Assembly: GCA_903929135.1 (NCBI GenBank)
Contig: CAIYTH010000046.1
Span: forward strand, 1 to 64,000
Length of the DNA: 64,000 nucleotides
Direction of reading: 5' to 3'
DNA from: an uncultured Chlorobiales bacterium
Lineage (GTDB): Bacteria > Bacteroidota > Chlorobiia > Chlorobiales > Chlorobiaceae
Shown: positions 57,008 through 63,830 of the stretch, piece after piece
How positions within the stretch are numbered: the stretch's first letter is position 1
How the letters are laid out: each line of letters begins with the position of its first letter
Position numbers and translations under genes: made by a program
The notes under the pieces: model-generated
What the model was told of the DNA's origin: nothing
The model's input: the letters and a program-made list of their open reading frames with translations, nothing else
The model's database searches: none

Positions 57008-57727
57008 ATGAAGATCAAAGCTTTGCTCCTCTTTCTGTTTCTTGGTTCCATCGCTGTTTTTTCTGACGGATTTGCCAGGGACAAGCCCAGGATCGGCGTC
57101 TTGAGATTTACCAACCATAGCAGCGCCGCATGGTGGCGCGGAGGCGTGGGAACCGATCTTCAGGATATGCTCATTTCAGAGCTGGCATCGACGGACAGTT
57201 TCCGGGTGCTCGAACGAAAAGAGCTCGATGCGGTCCTGAATGAACAGGATCTCGGGGCGTCAGGAAGGGTCAACCCGAAGACAAGGTCGAAACTGGGAAA
57301 AATAACCGGTGCCAAATATCTTGTCGCCGCGACGGTTTCAGCCTTCGAGCAGAACACCGGCGGTACCGGAGGGGGGGTCTCCTTCGGAGGAATCAGCCTC
57401 GGCGGGAAGCAGGAATCAGCGTACATGGCTGTCGACCTGAAAGTGATCGATGTGGAAACGGGTGAAATCTATGACGCCAGGACGGTCGAGGCATCATCCA
57501 AATCCAGCGGAATCAGCGTCGGCGTGCACACAGAAGGCTTCAGCGGCAACCTCGGCCAGTATAAGAACACTCCTGTAGGAAAAGCCATCAGGGGCTGCAT
57601 CATCGAAATTGTCGAATACCTGAAATGCTCGCTCGTGGAAGGCAAAAACAGCGACTGCATGGATGAATACAAACACAAAGAGCAGAAACGCAGGGAGAAG
57701 ACCAAGAGCTCCATCGATCTTGAATAA
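57008..57727 (+). CDS. CsgG/HfaB-family outer membrane-type protein
   Basis: 239 residues. Signal peptide (LLLFLFLGSIAVFSDGFA) then the CsgG domain (about 26-200): PRIGVLRFTNHSSAAWWRGGVGTDLQDMLISELASTDSFRVLERKELDAVLNEQDLGASG, then AKYLVAATVSAFEQ, and VDLKVIDVETGEI. CsgG secretes curli in Enterobacteria, but no curlin genes are present, so its cargo is unknown. It lacks a clear lipobox Cys. The last ~35 residues are highly charged (HKEQKRREKTKSS). A GGAGG stands 7 bases upstream of the start, and a terminator follows. Confidence 0.85.
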   Translation: MKIKALLLFLFLGSIAVFSDGFARDKPRIGVLRFTNHSSAAWWRGGVGTDLQDMLISELASTDSFRVLERKELDAVLNEQDLGASGRVNPKTRSKLGKITGAKYLVAATVSAFEQNTGGTGGGVSFGGISLGGKQESAYMAVDLKVIDVETGEIYDARTVEASSKSSGISVGVHTEGFSGNLGQYKNTPVGKAIRGCIIEIVEYLKCSLVEGKNSDCMDEYKHKEQKRREKTKSSIDLE

Positions 57728-59207: not shown

Positions 59208-59690
59208 ATGCCTCGTTACACACCTGAACAACTAGCCAAGCGCAATGCCTCCATCTGGACCGAAATCCAGATCATGCTCGCTCCGGTCCAGTTCCTTATC
59301 TTCCTTACGGGCGTGGCGCTGAACACGCTGTATGCCAACCATGTCATCCACATCGAGTTCTACTGGATCAGCGTCGCCCTGCTCTTCAAAACCCTCTTTT
59401 TCGTCGTGCTCTTCATTACCGGGATGTACTTCGAGAAGGATCTTTTCGGCAAGTGGGTCTACTCGAAAGAGTTTTTCTGGGAAGATATCGGCAGCTCGGT
59501 CGCCACCGTCTTTCATTTCCTCTACTTTGTGCTCGCATGGAAAGGATTTCCCGAAAACATCCTGGTGATAGGCGCATACATGGCCTATCTGAGCTATATC
59601 ATCAACGCCCTGCAGTATCTGGCCAGGATCTGGCTCGAGAAGAGCCATGAACGGAAACTGAAACTGAGGGAAAGCATCGAAGCAAGCTGA
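59208..59690 (+). CDS. bchF: 3-vinyl bacteriochlorophyllide hydratase (BchF/BchV family)
   Basis: 160 residues with four membrane helices. Family signature [33 protein letters not shown], then [51 protein letters not shown] and [19 protein letters not shown]. Hydrates the C-3 vinyl group of (bacterio)chlorophyllides, giving the 3-hydroxyethyl group found in BChl a precursors (BchF) and chlorosome BChl c/d/e (BchV). The two paralogues cannot be told apart here, so the symbol is tentative. A small membrane protein follows after 28 bases. Confidence 0.88.
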
Positions 59691-59943: not shown

Positions 59944-60353
59944 ACCCGCACATTGCCGTGTTAAAGGCAGGGGACGCCGCACCGAAGAGCAGACTGCTCA
60001 GGAAAGACGACCAGTGTTCCCTGCCATCCTGCCCCGACCCGTCCGTCTTTCAAGGCCGAAGCCTGACTAATCTACTTTCCAATGCAGAATGTGAAGTTTC
60101 ATCATACAACAACCACCTATTCCTTTATCTTATTTATACTTATTACCCACTCATCCGCATCCATAGACCTGTCCATTCAGCATATTAGCAACATTCCTAA
60201 GGAAAAGGAGCTCCAACGAATGTCATAATGCACCTGTCGCACCTCATCTTTCTTTTGCAAAAGTAAACCTTCCAACCGATACCCCTTCCTTTTTTTAAGC
60301 TCCTGTTTCCCCTGATTTGATGCAAGATTCTCTGTCGCTCATCATACGGTTGC

Positions 60354-60425: not shown

Positions 60426-60816
60426 CGACCCTTATTTACCGCCAAATACCCTGATAGAGCCAGATAGAGAAGTCACCCAAGCATTGACTGAAGGCGCGGC
60501 TTTTGCATCACAAAATGGAGCGAAGCGGAATGGAAGGTGTGACTGAGGGAATAAGCTGGGTGGTATGATCTCATCGATGCTCATGACCAGGCAACCAAAC
60601 CCACATGGCGGCAAGTAAACCGACGAGAGCTTAAGCAGAGCAATCTGCCATGTCATTAGGTCAAAATAGGCCGTTTAAGGCACTTTAATTGCCAGGGACA
60701 CCTAACTGATCAATGAGGGTTAGTTTTTGCCTATGCGTAGCTGTATGAGCCTTCATTTTGATTGAAAACAATCAGTTATACAGTAAAGGTACTTTCGGTT
60801 TGTTAGAAATATTATT

Positions 60817-60831
60817 ACGTTATTATAACGT
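60817..60831. promoter_or_regulatory. Candidate operator upstream of the island gene
   Basis: Perfect palindrome ACGTTAT-T-ATAACGT, 67 bases before the start of the 804-residue gene, in an AT-rich promoter-like stretch. Could bind a dimeric repressor; none is encoded nearby within the window. Confidence 0.45.
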
Positions 60832-60898
60832 TAACAGAGCAGACGTGTTTTACGAATATAGCGTCCTAATCTTTTTAATGAATTAAGTATTCTCTATT

Positions 60899-63313
60899 AT
60901 GAATCTAGATGAATCATACAGGATATTTCTCATCATTTATGATGATATTATTAGAGAATTAGAAAAAATACAGACGGAAGAAGATGCCAGATTTAAGATC
61001 ATAAAAAGATTATTGGTTGAAGCTCTCGGATGGGAATACAGTGAAATATTTTCCGAACCAAAATCAGATAGCGGCTACACAGATATACTAATCACGTCTG
61101 AAAATAGAAATCGTCTTGTCATAGAAGCAAAGAGGACAAGTGTAAAGTTATTGAGAACAAAAAGTGATAAATTAAATTTTTATAAATTATCAGGAGCCGC
61201 ACTTTCTAGCGCCAAAGATGGAATAATGCAGGCAAGAAGATACTGCATTGATCATGGTGTAGCATTCTCTATAATTACTACCGGGATTGAATGGATTGGA
61301 TGCTATGCTACTGGCGCAGGGAAATCTCCTGATGAAGGAAAAGCGATAGTATTCCCCTCTCTAGAATGCGTTAGAGATAATTATTCTAAATTTTATGAAT
61401 TATTATCAAAAGAAGGGGTATGCCAAAAACTTTACCAAATGATAATTGCGGAGGGCGAAGGTTTAAATATTAATAATTCGGAAAAACTGTACCGTCCTCT
61501 TAGCGAGTATGAAACATCTTTTCTCAAAAAAAGCCCTCTGGCTTCTGATCTTGAAATAATATTTTCTAGATTTTTTAGCCTGATGTCTGGAGAGTCGGAT
61601 AGAGATATGCTCACCCACTGTTTTGTCGAGTCAAAAGAAAGTAGGGAAGCCGATAAAAGCTTGGATAAAATCACTAGAAATCTAATAAATCAAATTGAAG
61701 TATTCGAAGCAGGGGAAGGTGATGAATTGCTCGGAGAAATAAAGTCTGCAATAGAATTAGAAAGAGGCGAGTTTGTGCTAATAATTGGGAATAAAGGAGC
61801 AGGAAAGTCGACTTTTATTGATAGATTTTTTAAGCTGATATTAGAGAATGAATTAAGAGGAAAATGCCTATTAATCAGGATTGATCTTGCGGATTCTGAT
61901 GGTGACTACAATAACATCAACAAGTGGCTAATAAATCGTCTTAAGGATGAAGTAGAGAGAGAAATGTTTAATGGGGATGATCCTGAGTTTAATGAATTGC
62001 AAGGCGTATTCTACAAAGAATATAATAGGTGGAAAAAAGGCGAACTAAGGTATTTATATGAAAAAGATAAAGGTGAATTTAAAATTCAATTTGGTAAGTA
62101 CCTGCGCAACCTAATAGAAGAAAAGCCATATGAATACATAATAAACATGCTGGAGTTTGCCATTAGGTCCAGAAAAGTGATGCCATGTTTGGTATTCGAT
62201 AACACAGATCATTTTGAACAAGCATTTCAGGAAAGAGTATTTCAATTCGCTCAATCAGTGCACAGAAGCATATTCTCATTTATAATATGCCCAATTACTG
62301 ATAAAACCGTCTGGCAATTATCTAAAAACGGCCCCCTACAATCTTATATAACGAAATCATTCTATCTGCCAACACCGAACACAAAGGAAATATTAAGAAA
62401 AAGGGTGTCGTTTATTAAGAATAAATTAGGTGATGATGATGCACAAAAAGGGACATACTTTTTAAAGAAAGGCATCCGCATGAAGGTTACCGATCTTAAT
62501 GCTTTTGCAGCATGCATAGAAGAAATATTTATTAATACGGATTATACATCAAGGACAATTAGCTGGCTATGTAATCACGATATAAGGCGAGGGCTTTTAT
62601 TGTCTCAAAAGATTGCGACGTCTCCATGGATGACAATTGATGATCTGGTTAAGGCTTATTTATCTAAAGATAAATTAAGCATAAGTAAGGATTCGATCAG
62701 GAAGTCAATTATTTTAGGCGATTATAATTTATATAATCTTGAGACAAATGAATTCGTTTTAAATGTATTTGCACTAGATGACGGAAAGATAACCACTCCA
62801 TTATTGAAGTTATCAATCTTAAGACTCCTAATAAATATCGATAACAATGCTATAGATGAGCCCGGATCTTATATCTCTGTAGATAATATCGTTAATTATT
62901 TTGAGCCCATGGGTATTTCGGAGCATTATATTTATATATATACCGAGCAGTTGTTAAAATATAGATTAATATCTCCATATGACCCTTCTAACGATATTGT
63001 AAAAGGCGACTTAATGGTAAGGGTGACTCATTCCGGAAGAATGCATATGGAGTTTGCACTGTCCGAGATGATATACATAACAAGCATGGCGTTAGTAACT
63101 GGATTAAGAAAGCACAATATTGCCGAAGAGATAAAATTAATTAATAGTACGTTTTATGGCGTATCAAAGGAGCGATGGATAGATATTGCAGATAAATATA
63201 TTTCTTATTGCATAGATGAAGATAAAGTATACGTATCTATCCCAAATAACAATATTTATGAAGGGCAGCGACTTTTACGGAGAGAATTGACTGAGCGTTG
63301 GCGCAAGAAATAA
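60899..63313 (+). CDS. PD-(D/E)XK nuclease-like / P-loop NTPase fusion, candidate defence protein
   Basis: 804 residues from an AT-rich gene unlike its neighbours. The N-terminus (about 1-170) has the HsdR-N-like restriction nuclease pattern: D62 in GYTDILI and E76-x-K78 in RLVIEAKRTS, the PD-(D/E)XK triad. A middle NTPase domain (about 280-560) has Walker A IIGNKGAGKST (K303), Walker B LVFDNTD (D434) and FIICPITDKTVW near 455, resembling STAND/KAP-type ATPases. The C-terminal 240 residues look alpha-helical, winged-helix-like, without named motifs. It is monocistronic. Single-gene anti-phage restriction is my inference; a transfer role is possible. Confidence 0.72.
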   Translation: MNLDESYRIFLIIYDDIIRELEKIQTEEDARFKIIKRLLVEALGWEYSEIFSEPKSDSGYTDILITSENRNRLVIEAKRTSVKLLRTKSDKLNFYKLSGAALSSAKDGIMQARRYCIDHGVAFSIITTGIEWIGCYATGAGKSPDEGKAIVFPSLECVRDNYSKFYELLSKEGVCQKLYQMIIAEGEGLNINNSEKLYRPLSEYETSFLKKSPLASDLEIIFSRFFSLMSGESDRDMLTHCFVESKESREADKSLDKITRNLINQIEVFEAGEGDELLGEIKSAIELERGEFVLIIGNKGAGKSTFIDRFFKLILENELRGKCLLIRIDLADSDGDYNNINKWLINRLKDEVEREMFNGDDPEFNELQGVFYKEYNRWKKGELRYLYEKDKGEFKIQFGKYLRNLIEEKPYEYIINMLEFAIRSRKVMPCLVFDNTDHFEQAFQERVFQFAQSVHRSIFSFIICPITDKTVWQLSKNGPLQSYITKSFYLPTPNTKEILRKRVSFIKNKLGDDDAQKGTYFLKKGIRMKVTDLNAFAACIEEIFINTDYTSRTISWLCNHDIRRGLLLSQKIATSPWMTIDDLVKAYLSKDKLSISKDSIRKSIILGDYNLYNLETNEFVLNVFALDDGKITTPLLKLSILRLLINIDNNAIDEPGSYISVDNIVNYFEPMGISEHYIYIYTEQLLKYRLISPYDPSNDIVKGDLMVRVTHSGRMHMEFALSEMIYITSMALVTGLRKHNIAEEIKLINSTFYGVSKERWIDIADKYISYCIDEDKVYVSIPNNNIYEGQRLLRRELTERWRKK

Positions 63314-63360: not shown

Positions 63361-63830
63361 TCAGGCAGCAATTACCGATGACGAATCCCTAAAGCTGTAA
63401 AAGCCTCCTGAGCTGCCAATGATGACATGATCGAATTTGCACGTCAAGTAGCTTTCCTGCCCCTACAAGGGCCTCTGTGACCGTTTTATCAGCATTGCTA
63501 GGCTCAATGTTACCCGAGGGGTGATTGTGAGCCGATGACTGCATGAGCGTTTGCCAGTAGGGCACCTTTGAAGACCTCACGAGGATGGACCAACGAGGCA
63601 TTAAGGGTTCCTCTGCTAACCATCTGGAGACCAATGACCTCATTCTTCGTGTTAAGGTATAAGGCATAAAACTCCTCAGATGCCCTCTCATGCAATCCCA
63701 CTGCCATTAGGAGCTTCGCTACCTCTTGGGCACCTGTTACCTTCTTATGCTCATACATGACAACTGAATCCCTAACCAGCTTGATTGAGTAGCAGGGAAT
63801 CTCGGTGAATAGGGAAAGTGATTTAGACAT
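63361..63830 (-). pseudogene. radC: Frameshifted short RadC (JAB/MPN+ domain) gene
   Basis: The minus-strand start MSKSLSLFTEIPCYSIKLVRD and EEFYALYLNTKNEVIGLQMVSRGTLNASLVHPREVFKGALLANAHAVI are typical of the short RadC proteins of mobile elements. An extra G near 63532 shifts the frame; the next frame gives AHNHPSGNIEPSNADK, the metal-binding motif. A second shift near 63432 (two bases missing) leads to DHVIIGSSGGFYSFRDSSSVIAA and the natural stop at 63361. So the protein would be ~157 residues if repaired. It sits next to the nuclease gene on the island. Confidence 0.88.

Follow-up and report, generated by a model that had tools for sequence, protein, structure and literature searches.

Analysis of the window, i.e. 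the whole stretch of 64,000 nucleotides from a contig of an uncultured Chlorobiales bacterium (CAIYTH010000046.1), revealed a gene encoding a fusion of a PD-(D/E)XK nuclease with an ORC/Cdc6-like AAA+ NTPase. This gene most probably constitutes a solitary, horizontally moved phage defence system, in which the NTPase gates the nuclease. The nuclease activity, the gating, the trigger and the defensive outcome are what we infer here; the domain make-up, the invariant residues, purifying selection and a location on mobile elements or in the P2 hotspot are observed features of the gene family. The coordinates of the single ORF given by the initial annotation proved exact; it lies on the + strand and starts with ATG. 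The features of the gene and of its surroundings are summarized in Table 1.

Table 1. Features of the nuclease-NTPase gene and of the adjacent island border and radC gene (positions refer to the window).
Feature	Position	Strand	Basis
Nuclease-NTPase gene, phrog_14719 family, 804 aa, ATG start	60899..63313	+	ORF list, profile match, tree
PD-(D/E)XK (HsdR-N-like) nuclease domain, about residues 1-186	60899..61456	+	AF2 model, Foldseek
Predicted catalytic D62 codon	61082..61084	+	invariant 48/48
Predicted catalytic E76-A-K78 codons	61124..61132	+	E76, K78 invariant 48/48
AAA+ (ORC/Cdc6-like) NTPase core and lid, about residues 285-575	61751..62623	+	AAA_16/AAA_22 profiles; Foldseek ORC/Cdc6
Walker A, G297-NKGAGKS-T305	61787..61813	+	G297, G300, G302, K303 48/48
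Walker B, D434-N-T-D437	62198..62209	+	D434, N435, D437 48/48
R502 in 'F.LP.P...hL..R' motif	62402..62404	+	48/48
R563 of (D/N)IR motif	62585..62587	+	48/48
Mainly helical C-terminus with winged-helix-like part, lacking an OB domain in the window protein	62624..63310	+	AF2 model
Frameshifted short RadC (JAB) gene, mobile-element type	63389..63830	-	ORFs, Pfam
att-like copy of mnmE/trmE 3' end, TTCTGCATTGGAAAGTAG, encoding FCIGK-stop; island left border	60072..60089	-	sequence match

The AlphaFold2 model of the whole protein (29 aligned homologues) had a pLDDT of 83.7 and a pTM of 0.65, with values of 94.5 and 0.90, respectively, obtained for the first 190 residues. The modelled nuclease domain consists of a helix, three strands, a helix and two strands, in this order. 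When compared with the PDB using Foldseek, it matched BpuSI, Cas4, HsdR (3h1t, EcoR124I) and DrdV, all of which are PD-(D/E)XK nucleases, with none of the matches passing E = 0.001 (best 0.0048). The D62/E76/K78 residues, the order of the fold elements and the Foldseek and HMM matches place this domain among the HsdR-N-like PD-(D/E)XK nucleases. Pfam matches of the window protein (AAA_16/AAA_22 and HSDR_N_2) were all sub-threshold, and stronger matches to AAA_16/AAA_22 and to HSDR_N or HSDR_N_2 were obtained with its relatives.

Foldseek analysis of the whole model placed ORC/Cdc6 AAA+ proteins at the top (1.3e-6), with RdrA, TnsC and CED-4/NLR further down, and a profile search of PDB sequences returned ORC4, HsdR 3h1t and TnsC among its matches. 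These top matches, together with Walker A, Walker B and R563 residues conserved in 48/48 members, identify the central part as an ORC/Cdc6-like AAA+ module; the likeness to ORC is limited to the NTPase part, since the whole-model pTM is 0.65 and the whole-chain TM-scores are low (0.2-0.5). The motif containing R502 resembles the post-sensor-1 motif of ORC/Cdc6 and may have a corresponding role, and R563 is a candidate sensor 2 residue. The C-terminus, originally described as all-alpha, is indeed mostly helical in the model, but short strands (E691-693, E706-709) are also present, within a part that resembles a winged helix; this putative winged helix, following the AAA+ lid, is a less certain assignment, read solely from secondary structure. 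No strong membrane segment was found: the highest 19-residue hydropathy is 1.22 in the window protein, and a value of 1.6 is reached by only 2 of the 48 members. Assignment to the KAP NTPases (PifA-like) was rejected, as no strong membrane segment was seen in the P-loop domain and the KAP profile gave weak matches in 2 of 14 members.

The protein is a full-length match to phrog_14719 of PHROGs v4 (E 1e-204, 683 bits; residues 3-798 of the window protein versus 4-809 of 833), a family whose function is entered there as unknown and which was matched by all 14 members tested. Comparison of 48 members revealed that E27, D62, E76, K78, Y115, G297, G300, G302 and K303, as well as D434, N435, D437, P493, R502 and R563, are invariant in all of them. 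Conservation of the D-ExK positions had been set beforehand as a refutation test of the defence reading, and D62, E76, K78, K303 and D434, whose positions the initial annotation had given correctly, are all within this set. The dN/dS ratios were 0.02 and 0.05 for the two close pairs that could be computed; in the other seven of the nine pairs, synonymous sites were too diverged. The invariance of these residues and the low dN/dS values indicate that both predicted catalytic centers have been kept by selection.

The tree of the 48 members has three main parts: the clade of the window protein (11 rows), a clade of 16, most of whose members have S1-type C-termini, and a third group of 21, in which OB tails were not recognized. 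The S1 domain was confirmed by Pfam in one locus (L070) and in one member of alignment A2, the remaining S1 tails being judged by eye. Within the window clade, cold-shock C-termini occur in proteins of A. baumannii, Phaeobacter, Pseudoalteromonas and Rhodobacteraceae and in prophage members, and are absent from the window protein and its Robbsia sister. Since two different kinds of nucleic-acid-binding OB-fold tail are found in separate clades, such tails were probably gained at least twice. Cold-shock domains generally bind RNA and are able to bind ssDNA (PMC11090510), which suggests that the C-terminus may be the sensing end of the protein. Two long-branch members of the S1 clade were observed (L083 and L011, the latter from a Phaeobacter inhibens plasmid); the L011 protein has no S1 tail and is encoded next to a recombinase gene and a toxin-antitoxin pair of the RelE type.

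The domain searches, the other refutation test set beforehand, did not assign the protein to any characterized defence or conjugation family, and no full-length match was obtained to a PADLOC model for a named system, an NCBIfam family or a PDB family. The defence reading was thus refuted by neither test. The cold-shock- and S1-tailed clades of phrog_14719 are described in this analysis. The known systems that share parts of its design differ in other respects. Ppl is a single-gene nuclease-NTPase system (PMC12904381) and likewise carries a nuclease and a controlling NTPase on one polypeptide, but its nuclease is a PHP exonuclease, whereas the present family combines an HsdR-N domain with an ORC/Cdc6-like AAA+ module and an optional OB tail. 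The CoCoNuT type IV restriction systems, in which an NTPase is combined with a PD-(D/E)XK nuclease and cold-shock-type OB domains vary between subtypes, are of the McrB-GTPase/McrC type, encoded by several genes and containing coiled coils (PMC11090510), in contrast to the one gene with an ORC-like AAA+ module found here.

A nuclease and a controlling NTPase are also joined in one polypeptide in the proteins of the Avs/STAND group, and CED-4/NLR folds appeared in the lower part of the Foldseek results. Avs proteins are STAND nucleases with large C-terminal sensor repeats. This assignment was rejected: there was no PADLOC match to Avs, and the part following the NTPase comprises only about 230 residues with no obvious repeats. 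MADS (mad3/mad8) was likewise discarded, its match being restricted to the P-loop stretch (best 7.2e-06 among members) with no operon present.

The similarity to HsdR covers the nuclease D, E-x-K and (Q/E)xxxY motif and the profile and fold match to 3h1t; the SF2 translocase, the methylase and the specificity subunit are all absent. A remnant of a type I restriction-modification system, persisting as an orphan subunit, would be consistent with the HsdR-N-like nuclease, with the annotation of some relatives as 'type I restriction endonuclease' and with the location of one relative near a type I system. However, the protein has no SF2 helicase motor, neither the window nor most relatives contain HsdM/HsdS, and the nuclease-AAA+ fusion is conserved as one unit across the 48 members, so that this explanation is largely refuted and highly improbable. 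A type I HsdR identity was also rejected at the profile level, as no helicase profile matched the window protein, a single DEAD match (0.0013) was found among 14 members, and HsdM/HsdS are not conserved neighbors.

The distribution of relatives links the family with mobile elements. IMG/VR scans identified 41 prophage loci with relatives, in 11 of which the gene is flanked on opposite sides by the P2 gpA and gpQ genes; at least one of the two is present at 16 of the 41 loci, and the flanks were confirmed by Pfam in four (L060, L063, L070 and L076). The 11 loci are not all independent, since two of them (L049 and L050) match identically. The gpA-gpQ placement was found in all three main clades, including the window's own, to which L049 (37% identical, with a cold-shock tail) belongs. 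This slot harbors old and tin in P2, is a known location of genes for phage exclusion and other anti-phage functions, and has been documented as a defence hotspot (PMC9122126). The family members found there in several P2-like prophages are single-gene cargo. The relatives, and not the window copy, therefore qualify as cargo of the gpA-gpQ hotspot. The reading as a one-gene defence system, proposed at the outset, is thus supported, since homologs sit in this hotspot and at other prophage or integrase cargo sites.

In E. coli, relatives were detected in 8 of 5426 genomes. Three of these loci were read, and each proved to be reversed Rac-type prophage cargo between DUF1367 and DUF977 genes; in thousands of further genomes the flanking parts of the same site enclose other contents. 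No relative was found in INPHARED phage records with three different family members as queries, so the phage link rests on the IMG/VR prophage contigs and the annotated E. coli prophages. Outside prophage hotspots, homologs are generally not placed in multi-system defence islands, and PADLOC scanning of neighbors showed no enrichment for multi-gene defence islands. In favor of a solitary defence gene, no conserved partner gene was found, and there were few DNA methyltransferases among 141 neighbors.

Relatives also occur in thirty plasmid records, many of them conjugative or mobilizable; in the regions examined they are single genes, often near integrases, transposases or replication genes. 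The same enzyme logic could thus be directed against competing mobile elements instead of lytic phages (anti-plasmid or inter-element competition), as the plasmid records and the several relatives adjoining integrases or replication genes might suggest. The use of the gpA-gpQ slot and the presence of prophage members in every clade argue against such a target, and we consider it unlikely.

A further alternative is a module aiding the movement of the element itself, in the manner of TnsA plus TnsC. TnsA is a PD-(D/E)XK nuclease and TnsC is an AAA+ protein of the ORC-like clade, i.e. the same two kinds of enzyme; both were matched weakly at the profile and fold levels, and the members sit on mobile elements. 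Nevertheless, neither a transposase nor any other neighbor is conserved, and many members lie inside P2-like prophages, which makes a role in transposition or integration very improbable. Specific assignment to a Tn7-like module was rejected (TnsA-N 0.11, TnsC 0.01; no conserved transposase neighbor).

The gene is rare and scattered: using the phrog_14719 profile, it was found in 5 of 395 genomes of the phylum and in 1 of 21 in the genus. It is the sole copy in the assembly (2.14 Mb) and was found in none of the other 100 genomes of relatives searched. The window protein as a single query against genome contigs produced one weak match, confined to the P-loop. A set of 280 "positive" genomes, obtained with the cold-shock-containing alignment A1, was discarded, as nearly all were short tail-column matches of the kind given by ordinary cold-shock proteins.

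Analysis of base composition confirmed the AT-rich setting of the gene: the GC content around it is 33-36% (0.357 and 0.329 in 61001-63000), compared to about 50-63% for the chromosome in the window (0.50-0.63 in the first 60 kb). The palindrome reported upstream is present (ACGTTAT-T-ATAACGT at 60817, 7-bp arms), but it is at chance level, since 13% of Markov resamples of that stretch reach this arm length. No inverted repeat of at least 12 bases was found in 60550-60960, an Rfam search gave no match, and promoter or terminator signals showed no clear excess.

The mnmE/trmE 3' end repeats and the composition suggest that the gene is integrated cargo of an island of ~7.7 kb (G000:C46:60072-67742). 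No second match of this kind to the FCIGK-stop copy occurs in the window, and 200 Markov resamples of the window yielded none. Compared with mnmE ends from two further species of the genus, the copy has a single mismatch, as opposed to four with the genome's own mnmE end. The intact native mnmE, oriented with the 3' end towards the island, ends at contig position 67739-67742, beyond the window. An empty site was not recovered, the nearest relative (G007) having a bchF copy in another context. The trmE 3' end is given as the integration site of SGI1-type islands in PMC8409611. In another relative (G013), the 3' part of mnmE is present in additional tandem copies. Such an arrangement would be expected if integration at that site had occurred repeatedly, and the mnmE/trmE 3' end has the appearance of a hotspot for integration in green sulfur bacteria.

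Besides the nuclease-NTPase gene, the island contains (i) the frameshifted radC, (ii) a fragment of an IS3-type transposase (rve integrase core) and (iii) an AT3-SGNH acyltransferase gene; no integrase was seen within it. The radC remnant noted earlier was confirmed, the RadC JAB domain being split between two minus-strand frames (63389-63691 and 63510-63830). The frameshift lies near the HNHPSG motif, and genes of this kind are common on mobile islands. The acyltransferase (L093:7645-9630, i.e. G000:C46:65644-67629) is of a type that modifies surface polysaccharides and is a possible modifier of phage receptors. Beside the island lies a gene for BchF (2-vinyl bacteriochlorophyllide hydratase; window 59208-59690), one of three BchF-like genes in the genome (the others at G000:C57:52474-52944 and G000:C48:92935-93402); its 85%-identical counterpart was found in G007 only, in a different context. 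The presence of BchF agrees with the genome being that of a green sulfur bacterium. The window also encodes a CsgG-like curli assembly/transport protein (57008-57727).

Some observations count against a defence role: the island neighbors of the window gene are not defence genes, and the three Bacteroidota neighborhoods examined contained no recognizable ones. Solitary nuclease-NTPase cargo of this kind could have anti-plasmid or element-maintenance roles.

According to the favored explanation, phage defence by an NTPase-gated nuclease, the N-terminal PD-(D/E)XK domain would act as a metal-dependent DNase, and the ORC/Cdc6-like AAA+ module would bind ATP, probably oligomerize, and hold the nuclease off. 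The helical/winged-helix part at the C-terminus may sense a nucleic acid or nucleoprotein that arises when a phage infects the cell; the most likely candidates are phage RNA and phage DNA that is single-stranded or being replicated. In relatives, the cold-shock or S1 OB domains would assist in this sensing. Sensing would then drive an ATP/ADP switch (rearrangement or assembly) that licenses DNA cleavage, resulting in destruction of the phage genome or death of the infected cell. A bolder proposal, which we put forward only tentatively and hold to be doubtful as a whole, is that the family represents a new class of one-gene defence, in which an AAA+ module of the replication-initiator type (ORC/Cdc6-like) has become the sensor and gate of a nuclease. 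The module would assemble on phage DNA in a replicating or single-stranded state or, by means of interchangeable cold-shock/S1 tails, on phage RNA, and would thereupon activate an HsdR-type DNase. P2-like prophages, plasmids and integrative islands would have carried this class into several phyla.

A literature search of limited reach found no published study naming or testing a member; the chance that the family has already been named elsewhere is minor but appreciable. The mnmE/trmE-bounded island, the gpA-gpQ placement of relatives and the two kinds of OB tail are new in this analysis. The family is widespread, compact and apparently unnamed within the literature searched, and its hotspot location and two-enzyme design with invariant residues make it directly testable, with the C-terminal OB variants (none, cold-shock pair, S1) serving as natural variants for probing sensor recognition. 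If true, an ORC/Cdc6-like switch acting on a nuclease would tie replication initiators to immunity.
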